DNA from: Nitrospira sp. CG24A
GTDB lineage: Bacteria; Nitrospirota; Nitrospiria; Nitrospirales; Nitrospiraceae
Assembly (NCBI GenBank): GCA_002869925.2
Contig: NEWT02000026.1
Location: 61,586 to 125,585 of the forward strand
DNA length: 64,000 bases
Direction: 5' to 3'
Positions 38,178-57,649 of this stretch are shown piece by piece. Within the stretch, counting starts at the first letter, position 1. Every line of letters begins with the position of its first letter. The notes beneath the pieces were generated by a model. The model was not told the origin of the DNA, did not search any database, and was given only the letters and a program-made list of their open reading frames with translations. A program made the translations under genes and the position numbers.

Positions 38178-38888
38178 ATGGCAAAATATACAGTGTCACT
38201 CGCCGTCGCCGCTCTGGGACTGTGGCTGGCTGCAACCGCTCCGTCCCACGCATCGACGGTGACGCAGCCGGGCCCGCAGACTGGACTCACGTATGAATCG
38301 CAGGTCGTCATGGGGGATGGCGACCTCGCCCACTACCATGGATCGGTCGGAGCCAAGAGTTGGGCGGAGCCGGGGCAAGCGGCCGGCAGCAAAGGCTGGA
38401 CCCACACGTCCCATTGGACCGCGCTGGATCTCACCGGCCTCAGCGGCTCCACTCTCTTGACTGTGATACTGGAGCGGGGCGATGGCCCTCCCAATCCCAC
38501 CAGCAATAATCTGTTCCCCGCCTTCAGCATTTTTTCAGGGTGGGAAACCGTGAATCCCGATACCAATAATCACACGTTCAACAATACGGGAAACATCAGT
38601 TGGGCCACCAACCTCACCTACATCGATCATGTGGCCAACATCGGCGGACCGAACGGAACCGACAGCGGAACAGGAGTCGACTCCGTTTCAAAACAGTGGG
38701 TGTTGGCTCCCGGCCTCTATACGCTCAATTACGGAGGCAATCCGTCGTTTGCCCTCGGCCAGTCCGGATTCCATGACTTCTCTGCGACCCTGGGAACATC
38801 GCCGGTGCCGGTGCCAGCCGCGGTCTGGCTGTTCGGGAGTGGAATCGCTGCTCTCGTCGGACTCGCGCGGCGCCGGATGAACGCGTAG
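38178..38888 (+). CDS. VPLPA-like (VPVPA) CTERM sorting domain protein
   Basis: Signal peptide; SPVPVPAAVWLFGSGIAALVGLARRRMNA. Confidence 0.92.
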   Translation: MAKYTVSLAVAALGLWLAATAPSHASTVTQPGPQTGLTYESQVVMGDGDLAHYHGSVGAKSWAEPGQAAGSKGWTHTSHWTALDLTGLSGSTLLTVILERGDGPPNPTSNNLFPAFSIFSGWETVNPDTNNHTFNNTGNISWATNLTYIDHVANIGGPNGTDSGTGVDSVSKQWVLAPGLYTLNYGGNPSFALGQSGFHDFSATLGTSPVPVPAAVWLFGSGIAALVGLARRRMNA

Positions 38889-39952: not shown

Positions 39953-41815
39953 ATGAACAAATTCTATTCGCAAGTCGGTATCAGTGTGGTCATCGGGATA
40001 CTCGCATTGACCGGTTCGGTTTTCTCCCAAGTCCCCGATCCGCCCCGCCCTCCGTCGCTCAAAACCGTGCCGGTGCCGGAGCCGACGAACCTTTCTGACT
40101 TTGTCAACGACCGTCAAGCCGCCATCCGTCTCGGCAAGGCGCTGTTTTGGGAGATGCAGGTCGGCAGCGACGGAGTCACCGCCTGCGCCAGTTGTCATTT
40201 CAGTTCAGGGATGGCCGACACGCGATCGAAGAATCAGCTTTCGCCAGGGCTGAAGCGTATCACGTCGACCGGCGCACCGAATCCCGACCGGACCTTCCAC
40301 AGAAATCTCGGCCCGGTGGGACAAGTGACGGGCTCCGATTTTCCTTTCTTCCCCGCGAGCAACGATGTCCTCTCTTCGCAGGGTGTCCGCAACTCCCTGT
40401 TCCTCGGCATTGGAAATGGCCCGGCTGATCTCACGCGCCAGGAACCGGATCCGGATGGATTTCGGGTCGGTTCAACGAACACCCGCCGCGTGGAACCACG
40501 GAATACGCCCACGGTGGTCAACGCCGTATTCAACCATCGTCAATTCTGGGACGGTCGAGCTGATCATGTGTTCAATGGCGTGAACGAAATGGGCGATCGC
40601 GATCCCAACGCCCGTGTCTTCCGTGCGGACACCCCGACCAACCCCATTCCCGTCCAAATCCAGATGGAGGACTCCAGCCTTGCTTCACAAGCGGTCGTCC
40701 CGCCGGTGAGTGGAGACGAAATGTCCGCTCGAGGCCGGACGATGCGGGATGTGGGCAAGAAATTCGCCCGCTGGGCGCCTCCTGGCCAGACGGCGACCAC
40801 TCTGCGCCCACTGGCCCTGCAACTCGTGCATCCGGAGGACAGCGTACTCGGTTCCTTGAGCCGGTGGCCGCAGAAAGGCCTGCACGCAGCCGGGTACTCG
40901 GAGCTGATTCAGGCTGCATTTCACCGTCAGTGGTGGGACTCGTCCAAACTGATTCGGGTGGGAACCGACGGGACACCCACCGTGATCGACCCGCCCGCTG
41001 GCCCCCTTGCCGCAAGCGACTACTCATTGATGCAATACAACTTCGCGCTCTTCTTCGGCCTGGCCATTCAGATGTATGAAACCACCCTCGTCGCCGACAA
41101 TTCGTCCTACGACCAGTTCATGGACGGCAACCCGAACGCCATCAGCCCGCAGGCCATCGCCGGCGTGGATTTCTTCCGCAACCAGATCCGCGGCCAATGC
41201 ATCAACTGTCACGAGGGCGCGGAAATGACCGGCGCCTCAGTTCGTCAAGTGCGGGCCAGCCCGACCCGAATCCGAGACGGACAAGCCGCGGATCGCGGCT
41301 TCAACAACATCGGTGTGCTGGGAACTCTTCAAGATTTGAGTTTGGGCGCGAAGGATTCCCTCGGCAATTGGCTGTCCACGGTGAAAGGCCTCACCCCGCC
41401 TCCGCCGGAACCCATCGTCGTGGACGGCGCGTTCAAGGTGCCGGGCCTGCGGAACGTCGAACTCACGGCGCCCTACTTTCACAACGGAGGCCAGCTCGAT
41501 CTCGATGCCTCGATCGAATTCTACAGCCACGGCGGAGACTCGCATGAACAGATGGTGACGCTCGACGGCATCCGCATCGAGCCGATGCCCATCTTCTCTT
41601 TTACCTCGGAGGAACACGAGGCCTTAAAAGCTTTCCTGCTCTCCTTGACCGACGAGCGGGTGCGCTTTCAACAGGCCCCGTTCGATCACCCACAACTGTT
41701 CATTCCGAACGGACCGGGCCTGCCACGCGCGATTATGCCCGGTGAGCAGCTGATGGAAATTCCCGCGGTCGGTCGTTTCGGCGGCGCGCCGCAGAAGAAA
41801 TTCCTGGAGCCATAA
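39953..41815 (+). CDS. Di-heme cytochrome c peroxidase/MauG-like protein (paralog of 34930-36951)
   Basis: CASCH and CINCH motifs; LGKALFWEMQVGSDGVTACASCH, FWDGRADHVFNG, VELTAPYFHNG. Confidence 0.88.
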   Translation: MNKFYSQVGISVVIGILALTGSVFSQVPDPPRPPSLKTVPVPEPTNLSDFVNDRQAAIRLGKALFWEMQVGSDGVTACASCHFSSGMADTRSKNQLSPGLKRITSTGAPNPDRTFHRNLGPVGQVTGSDFPFFPASNDVLSSQGVRNSLFLGIGNGPADLTRQEPDPDGFRVGSTNTRRVEPRNTPTVVNAVFNHRQFWDGRADHVFNGVNEMGDRDPNARVFRADTPTNPIPVQIQMEDSSLASQAVVPPVSGDEMSARGRTMRDVGKKFARWAPPGQTATTLRPLALQLVHPEDSVLGSLSRWPQKGLHAAGYSELIQAAFHRQWWDSSKLIRVGTDGTPTVIDPPAGPLAASDYSLMQYNFALFFGLAIQMYETTLVADNSSYDQFMDGNPNAISPQAIAGVDFFRNQIRGQCINCHEGAEMTGASVRQVRASPTRIRDGQAADRGFNNIGVLGTLQDLSLGAKDSLGNWLSTVKGLTPPPPEPIVVDGAFKVPGLRNVELTAPYFHNGGQLDLDASIEFYSHGGDSHEQMVTLDGIRIEPMPIFSFTSEEHEALKAFLLSLTDERVRFQQAPFDHPQLFIPNGPGLPRAIMPGEQLMEIPAVGRFGGAPQKKFLEP

Positions 41816-46196: not shown

Positions 46197-47261
46197 TCAG
46201 AACAGCGGTGTCGTGGCAAAAGACTTTGTGATCCCGAAGACGTAGCCGATTGTTTGCTGCAAGTTCCCATTGAAGTCGCGGTAGATCGGTATTTGCGCAA
46301 TGACATAGAGCTGACCATAATCGAACACGTTGACGACGGCGCCGGTTGAAAAGGCCAGGTATGTGCTGTTTGTTGTGGGAACCGGCCGGTCGAGGATGTT
46401 TCCGTCAAGGAGCACGGGGCGGTTCAACGGGGCTCCTTGCAACTCGAACAGTTGCGACTCAATGTTGTCTTGTGTCTTGTACCGAAAATTAATCTGCTCA
46501 GTGAGCGTCAGCCAGGGCAGGGTGACGAGATTCACCCCGGTATTCAAGGCATACTCCTGTCCGGATTGGTAGCCGTCTGAATTACGCAGGTTGTAGCGCC
46601 AGTGCCCTGACAGAAACTGATTCAGCCGGTGCGGCAGCACTTCATAGGTCTGGTAGAATCCCGGCTGAAAGCCGAAGGCGCCTTTTCCGACCTGAAGCGT
46701 CGACTCGGCAAGCTGTCCGGGAGCCCCTTCATGCCCATAGTCCCCGGTGGGAAAATAGACCCCCATTTCAAACACGAGCATGCTGCGCAGTGTCGGCAGC
46801 ATGTTGTATTTCATCTTCAGCAACACGTCGCCGATGCCCTTATCGTTGGTATTCGTCAGGGTGCCTGCACCGATCTGCCCGATGGCATTGATCTGCCTGT
46901 ACGGAACCGCCAACGCGAGTCCGAACCGTTCAGTCAAGCCGTAATTCAGATCCAGCGTCGTGATCCGGACCAACGTGGCCAACTGGCTGACTTGAGAATT
47001 GCCTAGAATCAGTTGCTTCGTTTGTTGGTTGGCAAAGGGGATGCTACTGGCGCCGTCCGGCGGTATTTCATTGTTTGTATAGGTATGGGTCAGGTTCATC
47101 GTGAGTACCCCGGCGGGCGAGACCTGCTGCTGCGATCCGATGACGACGAAACAGCTCGCCGAACCACAGGATGCCTCTGCCGGCGATTTAATCCCCACTC
47201 CGAGTAGCATCAGGAGAGAAATACAGGCCAGCAGGCGCGGCCGGCTAATTCCCGTCTTCAT
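46197..47261 (-). CDS. Outer-membrane beta-barrel/transporter-like protein
   Basis: Signal peptide; TTLDLNYGLTERFGLALAVPYR, GIGDVLLKMKYNML. Confidence 0.65.
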   Translation of the reverse strand: MKTGISRPRLLACISLLMLLGVGIKSPAEASCGSASCFVVIGSQQQVSPAGVLTMNLTHTYTNNEIPPDGASSIPFANQQTKQLILGNSQVSQLATLVRITTLDLNYGLTERFGLALAVPYRQINAIGQIGAGTLTNTNDKGIGDVLLKMKYNMLPTLRSMLVFEMGVYFPTGDYGHEGAPGQLAESTLQVGKGAFGFQPGFYQTYEVLPHRLNQFLSGHWRYNLRNSDGYQSGQEYALNTGVNLVTLPWLTLTEQINFRYKTQDNIESQLFELQGAPLNRPVLLDGNILDRPVPTTNSTYLAFSTGAVVNVFDYGQLYVIAQIPIYRDFNGNLQQTIGYVFGITKSFATTPLF

Positions 47262-47575
47262 CTTCCAACCGCTTGTTGCCGTAGACGGACTCTCTCAGAG
47301 ACGGGATCTTTACTGCGGATTGGTCCAGACGATCCCTGGAGGGCCTGGGTTCCCTGAGTCATCTCCGCCGCAACCGGCACCCCGATACAGTGGTGATTAA
47401 TCAAGGCGGCGACCGTCTCGCTGAAAATCCGAAGACTACCGGCGCCAAGCCTGGTTCCACCAAGGCGGCCGGCTTCTACCCACCGATATACCGTCCAACG
47501 GCTGACGCTCAGGAGCCGCGCCGCTTCGTCGACCCGGAGTAGCCGTTTGTGCTGCAATGTCAGCATTTCGTCCAT
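47258..47575 (-). CDS. Excisionase/BldC-like HTH protein
   Basis: KRLLRVDEAARLLSVSRWTVYRWVEAGRLGGTRLGAGSLRIFSETV. Confidence 0.8.
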   Translation of the reverse strand: MDEMLTLQHKRLLRVDEAARLLSVSRWTVYRWVEAGRLGGTRLGAGSLRIFSETVAALINHHCIGVPVAAEMTQGTQALQGSSGPIRSKDPVSERVRLRQQAVGR

Positions 47576-47769: not shown

Positions 47770-48147
47770 TCAGTTAGCAGGAAGATGGGGAGGGCTACGC
47801 GAAGAAGAGAGAACCGTGACGCCGATATCAGGCTTATCGGCCGATTCGATGTCGATCCATGAAAGAAAGGCAATGGTCGGAACGAAGACGGAGTCCGTAA
47901 GATCGAATCCCTGTCCCACCCCGCAGAGCCACGAACAGAGTGCGGAGGAATGGGTCGCCGCCTGGTGGTGGTCATGTTGTGCTTCATGAGCCACGGTTGC
48001 CGGTGAAGCAAGCGCAGGCACCAAGAGCAGGCAGGCCACCAATGGCAGCACGAGGATTTGTCGATTGAATCGAATCACGCTATCCCGCCATGCCGATACC
48101 GCCGGCCTCGGTCTGTTTCGATGAAGAGGATGGATTGCATGATACAT
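47770..48147 (-). CDS. Small His-rich LCxWxC protein (DUF2946-like), divergent copy
   Basis: Hydrophobic N-terminus, HEAQHDHHQAATHSSALCSWLCG, C-terminal RSPP. Confidence 0.6.
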   Translation of the reverse strand: MYHAIHPLHRNRPRPAVSAWRDSVIRFNRQILVLPLVACLLLVPALASPATVAHEAQHDHHQAATHSSALCSWLCGVGQGFDLTDSVFVPTIAFLSWIDIESADKPDIGVTVLSSSRSPPHLPAN

Positions 48148-48254
48148 CTTGCTCTCGGTAAACCCGGCGACACGAGCGAAAATTCCCCACCGTATGTAAT
48201 CTTCCTAGGTGCGAGAGGTGACACGTATGCCCCTTATACCCGTCCACCGATCGT

Positions 48255-48306
48255 TTGTCTACCTATGCTTGCTCACGGATGCAACAGTTGCTACACATGC
48301 TACATG
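48255..48306 (-). promoter_or_regulatory. Iteron promoter, class B, four or more repeats
   Basis: rc: TGTAGCATG TGTAGCAAC TGTTGCATC CGTGAGCAAGCATAGGTAGACAA; 17 bp from TAGACA to TATAAG. Confidence 0.75.
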
Positions 48307-51232: not shown

Positions 51233-51592
51233 TTATCCGATACAGACGAAGGACACCAACGGAGGCGCGCGAGAGTGGAGCAGGGAAGAAAAGGACGAAG
51301 GGGCTTCCTGATTGGGAGGCAAGGGCGCGAGCCGGACAACCAGGCTCGTTGCTAACGTCGGCGGCTCTGTGACCAGTCCGGCATCGGATGTGGACTGACA
51401 GGCCCAGGCGCAGAGCGCGTTGTGGGGAACAGCCTCGTGCGAATCATGATGCGCATGGCGGCTGGAGGGGTCGGCGTGATGCAACGCGCAACTCGCCGCC
51501 ATCGCCGCCAGCGACACATAGACCAGGGCCACAAGACCTGCGACAAGCGCGGTACTGCGTGATAGGCCAGGACGTGTCATCACCTTCTCCAC
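51233..51592 (-). CDS. Small His-rich LCxWxC membrane protein (DUF2946-like), copy 2
   Basis: Strong similarity to the 1320-1679 and 54100-54483 products; LCAWACQ, SRAPP. Confidence 0.7.
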   Translation of the reverse strand: MEKVMTRPGLSRSTALVAGLVALVYVSLAAMAASCALHHADPSSRHAHHDSHEAVPHNALCAWACQSTSDAGLVTEPPTLATSLVVRLAPLPPNQEAPSSFSSLLHSRAPPLVSFVCIG

Positions 51593-51624
51593 GATGGTAT
51601 GTCTATACGCGCCCGCCGAATATC

Positions 51625-51670
51625 TGTCTACCGACGCCTGCTCACGGAGGCTCCGTGTGCTACAAATTCC
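51625..51670 (-). promoter_or_regulatory. Iteron promoter, class B (copy 2)
   Basis: rc: TGTAGCACACGGAGCCTCCGTGAGCAGGCGTCGGTAGACAG; 17 bp to TATAGA. Confidence 0.65.
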
Positions 51671-54099: not shown

Positions 54100-54483
54100 T
54101 TATCCGATGGGGACGAAGGGTCCAGACGGAGGCGCGCGGGAGCGAAGCAGAGAGGAAGAGAGCGAAGGGGTTTCCTGATTAGGAGACGAGACCACCAGCC
54201 GGACAACCAGCTCTGTTGCCAACGACGCCGACTCCGTCGTGAGCCCAGCATCAGACGTGGCCTGACAGGCCCAAGCGCAGAGCGCATTGTGCGGAGCCGT
54301 CTCGTGAGAACTCTGGTGTGTGTGGCCGTTGGAGGGATCGATGTGACGCAACGCGCAGCCAGCCGCCATGAACGCCAGCGACGCATAGACCAGGGCGACG
54401 AGCCCGGCGACAAGCACGGTATGGCGTGATCTGGCAGAACGCATCATCACTTTCTCCACGAGGTCACTGCTTATACGCGTCAA
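54100..54483 (-). CDS. Small His-rich LCxWxC membrane protein (DUF2946-like), copy 3
   Basis: Paralog of 1320-1679; LCAWACQ, SRAPP. Start may be the Met at 54447. Confidence 0.7.
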   Translation of the reverse strand: MTRISSDLVEKVMMRSARSRHTVLVAGLVALVYASLAFMAAGCALRHIDPSNGHTHQSSHETAPHNALCAWACQATSDAGLTTESASLATELVVRLVVSSPNQETPSLSSSLLRSRAPPSGPFVPIG

Positions 54484-54491
54484 CGGATCAC

Positions 54492-54530
54492 CTGTCTACC
54501 GACGTCTGCTCACGGATGCTACAGTTTTCG
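54492..54530 (-). promoter_or_regulatory. Iteron promoter, class B (copy 3)
   Basis: rc: CTGTAGCATCCGTGAGCAGACGTCGGTAGACAG; 17 bp to TATAAG. Confidence 0.65.
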
Positions 54531-55117: not shown

Positions 55118-57184
55118 CTACAACGTGAAATTCACACCGCCGAAGAATTGCCGTGGCGCCCCGATCCAATTTGTTCCACCGAAATTCGATGCCAGATATG
55201 TGTCGTTGAGTATATTTTCTCCGATTACGAACATGCTGACATTCTTATAGATGGGATATGAGCCGTAGAGATCCAAAATGAACTGGTTGCTCAGCTTGGT
55301 CCCGTTATCGGGTTGGGCAAAGATCCGTTCATTGGCTCGCATGCGAAGCGAAAAATCGAGTCCCTCCGGATCGCGGTACCGCAGAGTAGCGGTCTGAGAA
55401 TGGAGCGGGACATTGGGACTGCGCTTCCCAACGACAGTGGGATCGGTGGGATTGTCCGTGATGGTGGAGTCGGTATAGGTGTAGCCGAATATCGCTGACC
55501 AGTATTGTGTCAGCTCCACTTCGCCCAAGAGTTCGACTCCCCGGCTCCGGAGTTTTCCCACATTGAAATATTGCAGCGTGAAGACGGGAAAGAAGCTGGT
55601 GGGGATTGGCGTAATCGCGTGATTGACCTCATTCCAAAAGACATTGGCCTGTCCTTTGAATCTCCCGCTATAGACATCGAAGCCGGCATCGCCGCCCCAC
55701 ATGGTCTCGGGAGCCACCTGATTGTTGCCCAGCAAGGCAAAGTTCGACGTGACAAAATTGTAATGCAGGGCGTCAAGGGTCGGGGCTCGAAAGGCCCTAT
55801 ACACGGAGGCTCGGAAGGCGAGGGGTTCAATAATTTGATAGCGTAGGGCCAGTTTAGGATTGAGCTGCAGCCGTTCCTGGTTCTCCAAGTTGGTCGTCGT
55901 CCCCGGAGCGGATTCCTGCTTCGACGCATAGTTTTGGTAGTAATCCAACCGCAGACTGCCCAAGAGTTCGAGATTCGGTATGGGGACGATGCTGACTTGA
56001 CCAAATGCGCCCGCAAACAGTTGGCTTCCATGCCCATTGAGGGTGGTGGGGCTGGCTCCGGGCGCGCTAAAGCGTTGCGAGCGATCGACGGCCTGGATTT
56101 GGCGCAGATCTACCCCGAGCTGAAACGAGCGAAACGTTTCGTTGATCGTCCGTGAATACTGGGAAGAGCCGCCAATGCTGGTGACGGGGATCTGATGGAA
56201 AGCCGACAGAAAGTTTGAATTCCGATTCCCTGGTGTCACGAAGGAAGCAGTATTGAATTCCTGTTGCTGTTGCAGATAGAACGCATTGGCCTCTAGAGTT
56301 TCCTGCTCGCTCAATTTCCACGTCGCTCCCGATTGGAAGTTCACCGTATTCTGGCGGTTATCGTCCAACGCGCGGCCAATGTTTTGGCGGCTGTTGTAAT
56401 AATTAACGCGGCCAAACCACTTGAAATCCGGCGATTGGTAATCCGTTTTGAATTGAACATTGGCGTTTGAGCTACCGGCGTTTTGGTCGATTGCGCCTCG
56501 CAGGTCCGCTTGTTGCGGTGTATAGCCATCAGTCTGTTGGTAATTGACATTTGCACTGATTCCAAATCGATCATTGATCCGATTGCTGACATAGGTGTTC
56601 GTCCGAAACGTTCCATTGGATCCACCCATCAGGCTTTGGCTCACCGTTCTTTCTCCGGCATTGCGGGTAATAATGTTAATTACTCCTCCCATCGCGAAGT
56701 TGCCCCATAGACTGGACGCTCCTCCGCGGACGACCTCCACTCGTTCAATCGTCTCCTTGGGCACCATGTTCCATTGCGTCGTCCCGAAGAAGGGATCGTT
56801 CAGAGGAACCCCATCCACTAAGACCAGGGTACGAAGATCACCCAGGCCTCGCATTCCGGCAAGGTTGCCTGTCGGATGTTGCGTGAAGCTATTCAAAAAA
56901 GGCATGTTGATACCAGGGACGGTGCGCAGGATGTCGTCCGTACCGATCGCGGGTGCGTCCTTGACGTCCTGCCGAGTCACCACCGAGACACTCACGGGCA
57001 TATCGGCCAGCGACCGTGCTGTTCGCGTAGCGGTCACGACGACGGGTTCAACGTTCAACTCTTCCGGCTGCGGCGCTTGCGGTGGCACGGACTTGTCTTG
57101 GGCATGCACGCTCGCAATGGGTGAAAATAGGGAAATACCGGTCAATAGAGATACGACAAGCAATAACCGCACATAGTTTTTCAT
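55118..57184 (-). CDS. TonB-dependent receptor
   Basis: Signal peptide MKNYVRLLLVVSLLTG; plug EPVVVTATRTARSLADMPVSVSVVTRQDV; IERVEVVRGGASSLWGNFAMGGVINIITR. Confidence 0.92.
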   Translation of the reverse strand: MKNYVRLLLVVSLLTGISLFSPIASVHAQDKSVPPQAPQPEELNVEPVVVTATRTARSLADMPVSVSVVTRQDVKDAPAIGTDDILRTVPGINMPFLNSFTQHPTGNLAGMRGLGDLRTLVLVDGVPLNDPFFGTTQWNMVPKETIERVEVVRGGASSLWGNFAMGGVINIITRNAGERTVSQSLMGGSNGTFRTNTYVSNRINDRFGISANVNYQQTDGYTPQQADLRGAIDQNAGSSNANVQFKTDYQSPDFKWFGRVNYYNSRQNIGRALDDNRQNTVNFQSGATWKLSEQETLEANAFYLQQQQEFNTASFVTPGNRNSNFLSAFHQIPVTSIGGSSQYSRTINETFRSFQLGVDLRQIQAVDRSQRFSAPGASPTTLNGHGSQLFAGAFGQVSIVPIPNLELLGSLRLDYYQNYASKQESAPGTTTNLENQERLQLNPKLALRYQIIEPLAFRASVYRAFRAPTLDALHYNFVTSNFALLGNNQVAPETMWGGDAGFDVYSGRFKGQANVFWNEVNHAITPIPTSFFPVFTLQYFNVGKLRSRGVELLGEVELTQYWSAIFGYTYTDSTITDNPTDPTVVGKRSPNVPLHSQTATLRYRDPEGLDFSLRMRANERIFAQPDNGTKLSNQFILDLYGSYPIYKNVSMFVIGENILNDTYLASNFGGTNWIGAPRQFFGGVNFTL

Positions 57185-57304
57185 CACGCCCTCCTGGAGA
57201 TACAATGAGAAGCCGGCTCGTCGGCCGTCTTGCCGAAAATAGCGCAAGCCGTGCCCAGCTTGAACTCATGACATGCCGATGAACGGACCGCTAGAATGTA
57301 GACG

Positions 57305-57649
57305 CTAGGTTTTAGACTTAGACAGGCGCACTGGAGGGCCTCGCATCTCGGGCAGTATCTCGGCTCTTGTGAGCAGGCGTTGCGTCAACACAGTGGCAAT
57401 GCCGATGAAAACTAAACCTGGCAGGGTGCGGTCCCACAGACTGATGAAGGGTGGAGACGAAGATAGTTGGCATGACCAGTCGCATAAGATCGTGTGGGGA
57501 TATAAGTGGTCATGTGCGTGAGCCTGGTGATGAGAATCGAATGTCGGACCGAGCGGGCAAGCTGCCGCGAGCGCCATCAGCAAGGCATAGACGGCCAGTA
57601 AAACGGTTGCCCCTGTTTTGAGCCGTCGGGAGAGGTCCGAAGCTCTCAC
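57305..57649 (-). CDS. Small His-rich LCxWxC protein (DUF2946-like)
   Basis: HHQAHAHDHLYPHTILCDWSCQ, C-terminal RGPP. Confidence 0.65.
   Translation of the reverse strand: MRASDLSRRLKTGATVLLAVYALLMALAAACPLGPTFDSHHQAHAHDHLYPHTILCDWSCQLSSSPPFISLWDRTLPGLVFIGIATVLTQRLLTRAEILPEMRGPPVRLSKSKT

Follow-up and report, generated by a model that had tools for sequence, protein, structure and literature searches.

Five promoters in the 64-kb window (the whole stretch of Nitrospira DNA analysed here) carry a repeat array of one type, called class B, and to judge from their sequence they look like the operators of a regulon. We consider it likely, taking the model as a whole, that the class B sites are metal-homeostasis operators that would be read by a small HTH_17 protein and would head uptake operons gated by leader peptides.

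Class B Promoters in the Window

Direct reading has located all five sites on the minus strand, each with the -35 element TAGACA and a TATANN -10 element at a distance of 17 bp, or of 18 bp at the 59-kb site (Table 1). The positions agree with those proposed in the earlier note, and so do the genes that follow, namely LCxWxC ORFs at four sites and a BNR-CPCCR gene at the fifth. The same sites have been recovered by a matrix derived exclusively from other genomes (78 sites), with the window copies left out: they rank first with scores of 52.6, 42.4, 41.6, 34.5, and 26.7, followed by a next window position at 5.9 and compared with a maximum of 6.1 over 20 shuffled windows. For the 22-base core CGTGAGCANACGTNGGTAGACA, four matches with ≤3 mismatches have been found in the window versus 0.01 expected, and a genome-wide search at this threshold has found no copy elsewhere in the 3.36-Mb genome. 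A plain consensus promoter scan has missed the class B promoters because it demands a T at the last -10 position.

The 32-mer that had been quoted for the whole class is indeed the 54.5-kb copy, and it is not the reading of the other copies, which deviate from it mainly by the first unit (1742 and 51655), by extra units (48286 and 51655), and by an inserted unit (59063). The extra 9-bp units described for the 48.3-kb copy are real and read TGTAGCATG (48304-48296), TGTAGCAAC (48295-48287), and TGTTGCATC (48286-48278); the 51.6-kb and 59.0-kb copies each carry one extra unit as well. The notion of a repeated recognition unit that varies in number, overlaps the -35 element with its last copy and recurs at the promoters of one metal block has held up.

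Table 1. Positions of class A and class B elements and of associated genes in the window.
Feature	Position	Strand	Details
Class B promoter	1689..1742	-	site 1742-1712; TAGACA-17-TATAGC; -10 at 1694-1689
Class B promoter	48233..48304	-	site 48286-48256; TAGACA-17-TATAAG; -10 at 48238-48233
Array of the 48.3-kb promoter	48233..48304	-	TGTAGCATG TGTAGCAAC TGTTGCATC CGTGAGCAA..GGTAGACA (-35 TAGACA)
Class B promoter with extra unit TGTAGCACA	51602..51664	-	site 51655-51625; TAGACA-17-TATAGA; -10 at 51607-51602
Class B promoter, top match in the window	54470..54523	-	site 54523-54493; TAGACA-17-TATAAG; -10 at 54475-54470
Class B promoter with inserted unit	58999..59063	-	site 59063-59023; TAGACA at 59028-59023; 18-bp spacer; TATATA
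Leader ORF, CAWAC ... RAPP	1320..1661	-	
Leader ORF, CSWLC ... RSPP	47770..48147	-	alternative start 48078
Leader ORF, CAWAC ... RAPP	51233..51577	-	
Leader ORF, CAWAC ... RAPP	54100..54447	-	
Leader ORF, CDWSC ... RGPP	57305..57649	-	between BNR gene and TonB receptor
HTH_17 candidate regulator	494..805	-	behind leader and HMA protein
HTH_17 (BldC/Xis-like) candidate regulator	47258..47575	-	behind leader 47770-48147
HTH_17 candidate regulator	59615..59794	-	between TonB receptor and ExbB
Periplasmic heavy-metal-associated (HMA) protein	781..1083	-	
TonB-dependent receptor, no STN domain	55118..57247	-	behind leader 57305-57649
BNR-repeat protein with CPCCR	57696..58958	-	first gene after the 59-kb site
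ExbB-like proton channel	59107..59532	-	
Second TonB-dependent receptor	59914..62271	-	upstream of HTH_17 and ExbB genes
Class A site	25837..25901	-	upstream of PEP-CTERM gene 25058-25609
Class A site	26901..26965	-	upstream of PEP-CTERM gene 25946-26689
Class A site	38059..38123	+	upstream of PEP-CTERM gene 38178-38888

Conservation and Architecture of the Class B Sites

Across the family, 88 of 178 genomes carry the class B core at ≤2 mismatches, as a rule confined to one or two blocks of a given genome, and matches to the backwards motif, used as a control, have been rare. The exact 23-base form has been found at 29 places among 85,488 species genomes, including FP929003.1 of Ca. Nitrospira defluvii, and all of these records are titled Nitrospira or Nitrospirota except for one, which is titled Nitrosospira isolate NOB2 and which we suspect to be a naming slip.

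The consensus of 82 aligned sites reads TGTAGCATC CGTGAGCAN CCGTC GGTAGACA, followed by 17 bp and TANANG. Its first nine bases, the unit TGTAGCATC, lie outside the search pattern and seed, so that their conservation provides independent evidence. Extra units have been observed almost exclusively at -9/-10 and -18/-19 bp (with single matches at -24 and -36), from which a 9- to 10-bp periodicity follows; a longer array is exemplified by TGTAGCATCC GTGAGCACCC GTGAGCATAC GTCGGTAGACA. Within the class B site, the units are spaced by 9 and then 10 bp, and the third one is weak as a repeat. The -10 element of the family ends with G instead of T and is CGTA-like in many relatives.

Several genomes that possess HTH_17 and lack the strict motif carry a diverged motif, e.g., TGTTGCARSGAGTRGCATCCATCGGTAGACR, ahead of a leader beside HTH_17. 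Such diverged operators, found in five fetched loci (L110 at 17680, L112 at 8222, L114 at 7407, L117 at 8172, and L123 at 8086), are tied to a leader/HTH_17 pair adjoining an OmpR-type gene and possibly represent a third class of sites. A plasmid origin of the 48-kb operon has been considered as well and has been rejected, as no match was found.

Probable Leader ORFs Behind the Class B Sites

The small LCxWxC proteins encoded behind the sites are probably metal-sensing leader peptides, a role that was missed in the earlier note. In the window, the 1.3-kb leader precedes the HMA and HTH_17 genes, the 47.8-kb leader the genes of HTH_17 and of an outer-membrane-type protein, the 51.2-kb leader a cytochrome P460 gene, the 54.1-kb leader the genes of a secreted protein and a TPR protein, and the 57.3-kb leader a TonB receptor gene. 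Leaders stand as the first gene of operons with copper-related, TonB or PepSY genes, save for 57305-57649, which follows the BNR gene as the second gene of its operon. In Nitrospira loci generally, the genes after the leaders encode a TonB receptor, PepSY, HMA or HTH_17 proteins.

The association has been quantified on 103 distinct Nitrospira sites by counting short ORFs that start 45-330 nt downstream and end with R[AGS]PP. Such an ORF is present at 83 of the 103 sites, versus 152 of 3000 random positions (5%) in long loci, while scrambled versions of the tetrapeptide have been found at 0-4 of the 103 sites; the ∼20% of sites without an RxPP leader precede BNR genes and some others. This site-based count has been used in place of the invariance of RxPP in our leader alignments (A3 and A4), which results from selection of the members and is not evidence. 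The leaders can be sorted into three or more families, among them those termed CxWxC (the LCxWxC proteins), VCxTC, and HCNE. The distance between the second Cys and the Arg is 41 or 42 residues in the CxWxC leaders (n = 24, 17-68% identity to the first), the last WxC Cys of the VCxTC leaders (n = 10) lies 44 residues from the Arg, and the Cys-to-Arg spacing is 54 in the HCNE leaders (n = 5). In the CxWxC leaders, a CxxxC motif is combined with a C-terminal R[AGS]PP at near-fixed spacing, and in this respect they agree with the CruR/CutF type. Eight of the 24 CxWxC leaders match DUF2946 (PF11162) at E-values up to 0.05 (best 0.001), the one member scored in full has missed the curated cut-off (18.2 versus 23.7 bits), and VCxTC and HCNE leaders have given no DUF2946 match. 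Since this match is weak, we refer to the leaders as CruR/CutF-like, i.e., as peptides that would work in the same way, and do not claim them as established members.

Further arrangements of these genes have been observed. In the fetched locus L050 (7104-17122), three leader-TonB receptor units stand in tandem, with a separate class B site for every leader, and are followed by a leader ahead of a PepSY_TM and HlyD/ABC/FtsX set. A C-x-C-C motif occurs in two BNR-repeat genes of the window, 57696-58958 and 63211-63858 on the minus strand; the former lies directly after a class B site, as do its relatives in three other loci (L033, L048, and L054).

An HTH_17 Protein as the Candidate Reader

The best candidate for reading the repeats is the small HTH_17 protein that is encoded in the same operons. 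The three HTH_17 genes of the window, out of 10 HTH_17 matches in the genome, all lie in or adjoin class B operons. Two of their products score 45.6 and 38.8 bits with PF12728 (HTH_17), compared to a cut-off of 27, and the third is also above this cut-off in the genome scan. The BldC subfamily model NF033787 has not been reached (23.8 and 25 bits versus a cut-off of 77), and the candidate is, by its sequence profile, related to BldC and not BldC itself. A structure model predicts a winged helix with a pLDDT of about 90 or higher for residues 11-60, for which the closest PDB structures are 4j2n, 6ama, and 6amk, i.e., Pukovnik Xis and BldC-DNA complexes; the sequence profile leads to the same two proteins.

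Of 178 genomes in total, 84 of the 88 motif-positive ones encode HTH_17, versus 26 of the 90 motif-negative ones (Fisher 5e-22, with phylogeny ignored), and the same trend has been seen inside three genera (g1, g14, and g16). Motif and HTH_17 lie within 10 kb of each other in 58 of the 66 genomes with both listed, versus about 3% expected for a 4-Mb genome. The order site-leader-HTH_17 within 0.5-0.95 kb has been observed at 29 loci, and among L017-L046 (n = 30), which comprise the best site per genome, this order describes a nonrandom sample of sites. Up to three or four HTH_17 paralogs occur per genome, and HTH_17 is the sole DNA-binding family recognised by eye among the families common to at least five fetched blocks. 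What the sequences show is the array with the layout of its repeats, its conservation, the gene order, the features of the leaders, and the family and predicted fold of HTH_17; that HTH_17 binds the array is inferred. The co-occurrence could also reflect a gene block that travels together as a whole rather than recognition.

Class A Sites of the PEP-CTERM Region

Class A sites, upstream of PEP-CTERM genes, have the form TCACATCTGTWGCAAC...GGTAGC...TA at 25.9, 26.9, and 38.1 kb and are weaker at 28.5, 33.8, and 34.8 kb. They have also been found upstream of related PEP-CTERM genes in two other genomes (G137 and G142), with more examples in a third (G161). The PEP-CTERM region further contains two CCP/MauG di-haem peroxidase-like genes on the plus strand, 34864-36951 and 39953-41815, the first of which follows a class A-like site. 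The minus-strand gene 23657-24979 joins a PEP-CTERM-like membrane segment to a receiver-like portion and a DNA-binding domain of the OmpR type, a fusion that has the look of an exosortase-processed regulator; in other Nitrospira, its relatives are located immediately upstream of a diverged class B site, a leader, and HTH_17.

The earlier note had proposed that class A (25.9-38 kb) uses the same repeat logic as class B and thereby links two regulons, which the sequences support in part. TGTWGCA and GGTAG(C/A) are common to both classes, and the first unit lies 47-48 bp from the -10 element in class A and 48 bp in class B. The similarity is real, with the first unit and its 47-48 bp spacing in common, yet the two classes give separate matrices, and they may or may not form one regulon.

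Alternative Readings

That the similarity of the two classes arises by chance, with two unrelated regulators and repeats that are superficially alike, is a serious possibility, falling only a little short of probable. The matrices are distinct, class A sites have not been picked up when the window was scanned with the class B matrix, a conserved TCACATC prefix belongs to class A alone, and the alignment of the two matrices is weak (z about 2, in a global comparison confounded by overlap length). A chance resemblance would have to account for TGTWGCA, GGTAG, and the 47-48 bp distance to the -10 element in all class A sites examined. The OmpR-type regulator 23657-24979 is a good candidate for the reader of class A, and the existence of such a rival regulator speaks against a shared recognition unit. 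An ordinary role of the LCxWxC ORFs as small periplasmic metal-binding proteins, with which their signal-like N termini, their His/Cys segments, and a DUF2946 match that is weak and limited to some of them would agree, is unlikely in view of the R[AGS]PP ending at 83 of 103 sites, which recurs in several unrelated families at near-fixed Cys-to-Arg spacing within each.

Regarding the reader of class B, proteins of the OmpR family are able to bind direct repeats adjacent to the -35 element, which is also the arrangement of the class B sites. PhoP and PmrA are named in the paper on BldC (PMC5859096). An OmpR-type response regulator such as 23657-24979, which adjoins class A genes and in several genomes has relatives located upstream of diverged class B sites, might read the class B repeats and leave HTH_17 as a bystander. 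We regard this as quite improbable: in many class B-rich genomes, including N. defluvii, the only OmpR homologs are distant, generic ones encoded outside the block, as in G017 with its best OmpR match at 2.38 Mb and the motifs at 0.62-0.64 Mb, and HTH_17 adjoins the sites. The distribution of the class B motif over the family is not followed by any OmpR gene, and on this ground this type of regulator has been set aside as the class B reader. There is similarly little to recommend an ECF-sigma promoter composed of GGTAGACA and the -10 element (often CGTA), with the upstream units as a sigma-associated element only, despite the very high conservation of GTAGACA, the CGTA-like -10 in many relatives, and a last -10 base that is wrong for sigma-70. 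The window copies, TATAAG and TATAGA at 17 bp, are near sigma-70, and units repeated in tandem upstream are not characteristic of ECF promoters. None of the Sigma70_r4_2 matches of the genome falls inside the window, and the TonB receptors are without the STN signalling domain; a FecI-type ECF sigma regulon is unlikely, as neither nearby ECF sigma genes nor a receptor STN domain have been found.

Proposed Circuit and Comparison With Known Systems

Our preferred reading, with HTH_17 as the reader of class B, may be outlined as follows. The operator would consist of three units of about 9-10 bp (GTAGCATCC, GTGAGCANNC, and GTCGGTA), at times of four or more, arranged head-to-tail, and the last unit extends into the -35 TAGACA. 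HTH_17 protomers would line up on these units as a head-to-tail oligomer, meet RNA polymerase at the -35 element, and set the transcription of the class B operons. Activation, for which a class II arrangement was suggested in the earlier note, is slightly favoured over repression because the -10 element is poor; repression would fit the layout too. The transcript would open with the leader ORF, which would be translated first, and its nascent Cys/His segment may sense a metal, probably copper. The C-terminal R[AGS]PP may act as an arrest motif in the manner of CruR and CutF, deciding on the expression of the rest of the operon, so that the leader would gate the uptake genes behind it as well as, in many operons, the HTH_17 gene, whose position after the leader suggests that the amount of HTH_17 would itself track the metal signal. 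A tentative extension, which we put forward as a possibility short of an expectation, is a metal-gated feedback: the reader would be made only when its leader signals low metal, and one nascent-chain sensor would set a BldC-like regulator for all leader-headed uptake operons and perhaps, by way of the unit common to both classes, for the PEP-CTERM surface genes too.

BldC of Streptomyces binds in head-to-tail fashion to direct repeats of 9 bp, the number of which varies (PMC5859096). BldC, Pukovnik Xis, and RdfS belong to the same sequence family as the HTH_17 candidate and share its predicted fold, and the class B repeats resemble those of BldC in their 9-bp unit, their variable number, and their distance of about one helical turn. 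The BldC consensus AATTNNNNC is unlike the class B unit GTAGCA/GTGAGCA, and in contrast to BldC the class B sites abut the -35 element of metal operons, with the HTH_17 genes inside the operons that they would control. CruR of Bordetella pertussis, with a Cys pair and RAPP separated by 45 residues, is a nascent-chain copper sensor that controls a TonB receptor operon (PMC9426467). The Nitrospira leaders resemble CruR (the DUF2946 uORF of the bfrG operon) as short first-in-operon leaders with a Cys pair and a C-terminal RAPP at near-fixed spacing, and the orders leader-TonB receptor and leader-PepSY likewise occur in CruR operons. They differ by CxxxC in place of CxxC, by a spacing of 41-44 (or 54) residues in place of 45, by the weak DUF2946 match, and by comprising three or more leader families that share an operator and have a linked regulator. 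CutF of Rhodobacter capsulatus carries CxxxC and a proline-rich C terminus (PMC9973294); the leaders are similar to CutF and CutF-like proteins in these features and in their position in copper operons, and differ by the RxPP ending. The main text of that paper does not mention Nitrospirota, and no tie to a BldC-like regulator has been found in the passages considered.

Implications for Nitrospira

Nitrospira are major nitrite oxidisers, some of them complete ammonia oxidisers, and are hard to grow and to manipulate; to our knowledge, little is known about the control of their metal uptake. In the titles and abstracts retrieved from the open-access literature no description of such a metal-control circuit has been found, and the combination of iterons, leaders, and HTH_17 in metal uptake does not seem to have been described so far. 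The analysis names a specific operator together with a candidate regulator and the target operons, all of which are open to testing in a surrogate host. The CruR/CutF concept, so far one of individual operons, would thereby be widened to a regulon of multiple operons in which a single promoter type serves several families of leaders. The analysis also suggests that BldC-like proteins may serve as local regulators beyond Streptomyces development and phage excision, their main known settings.
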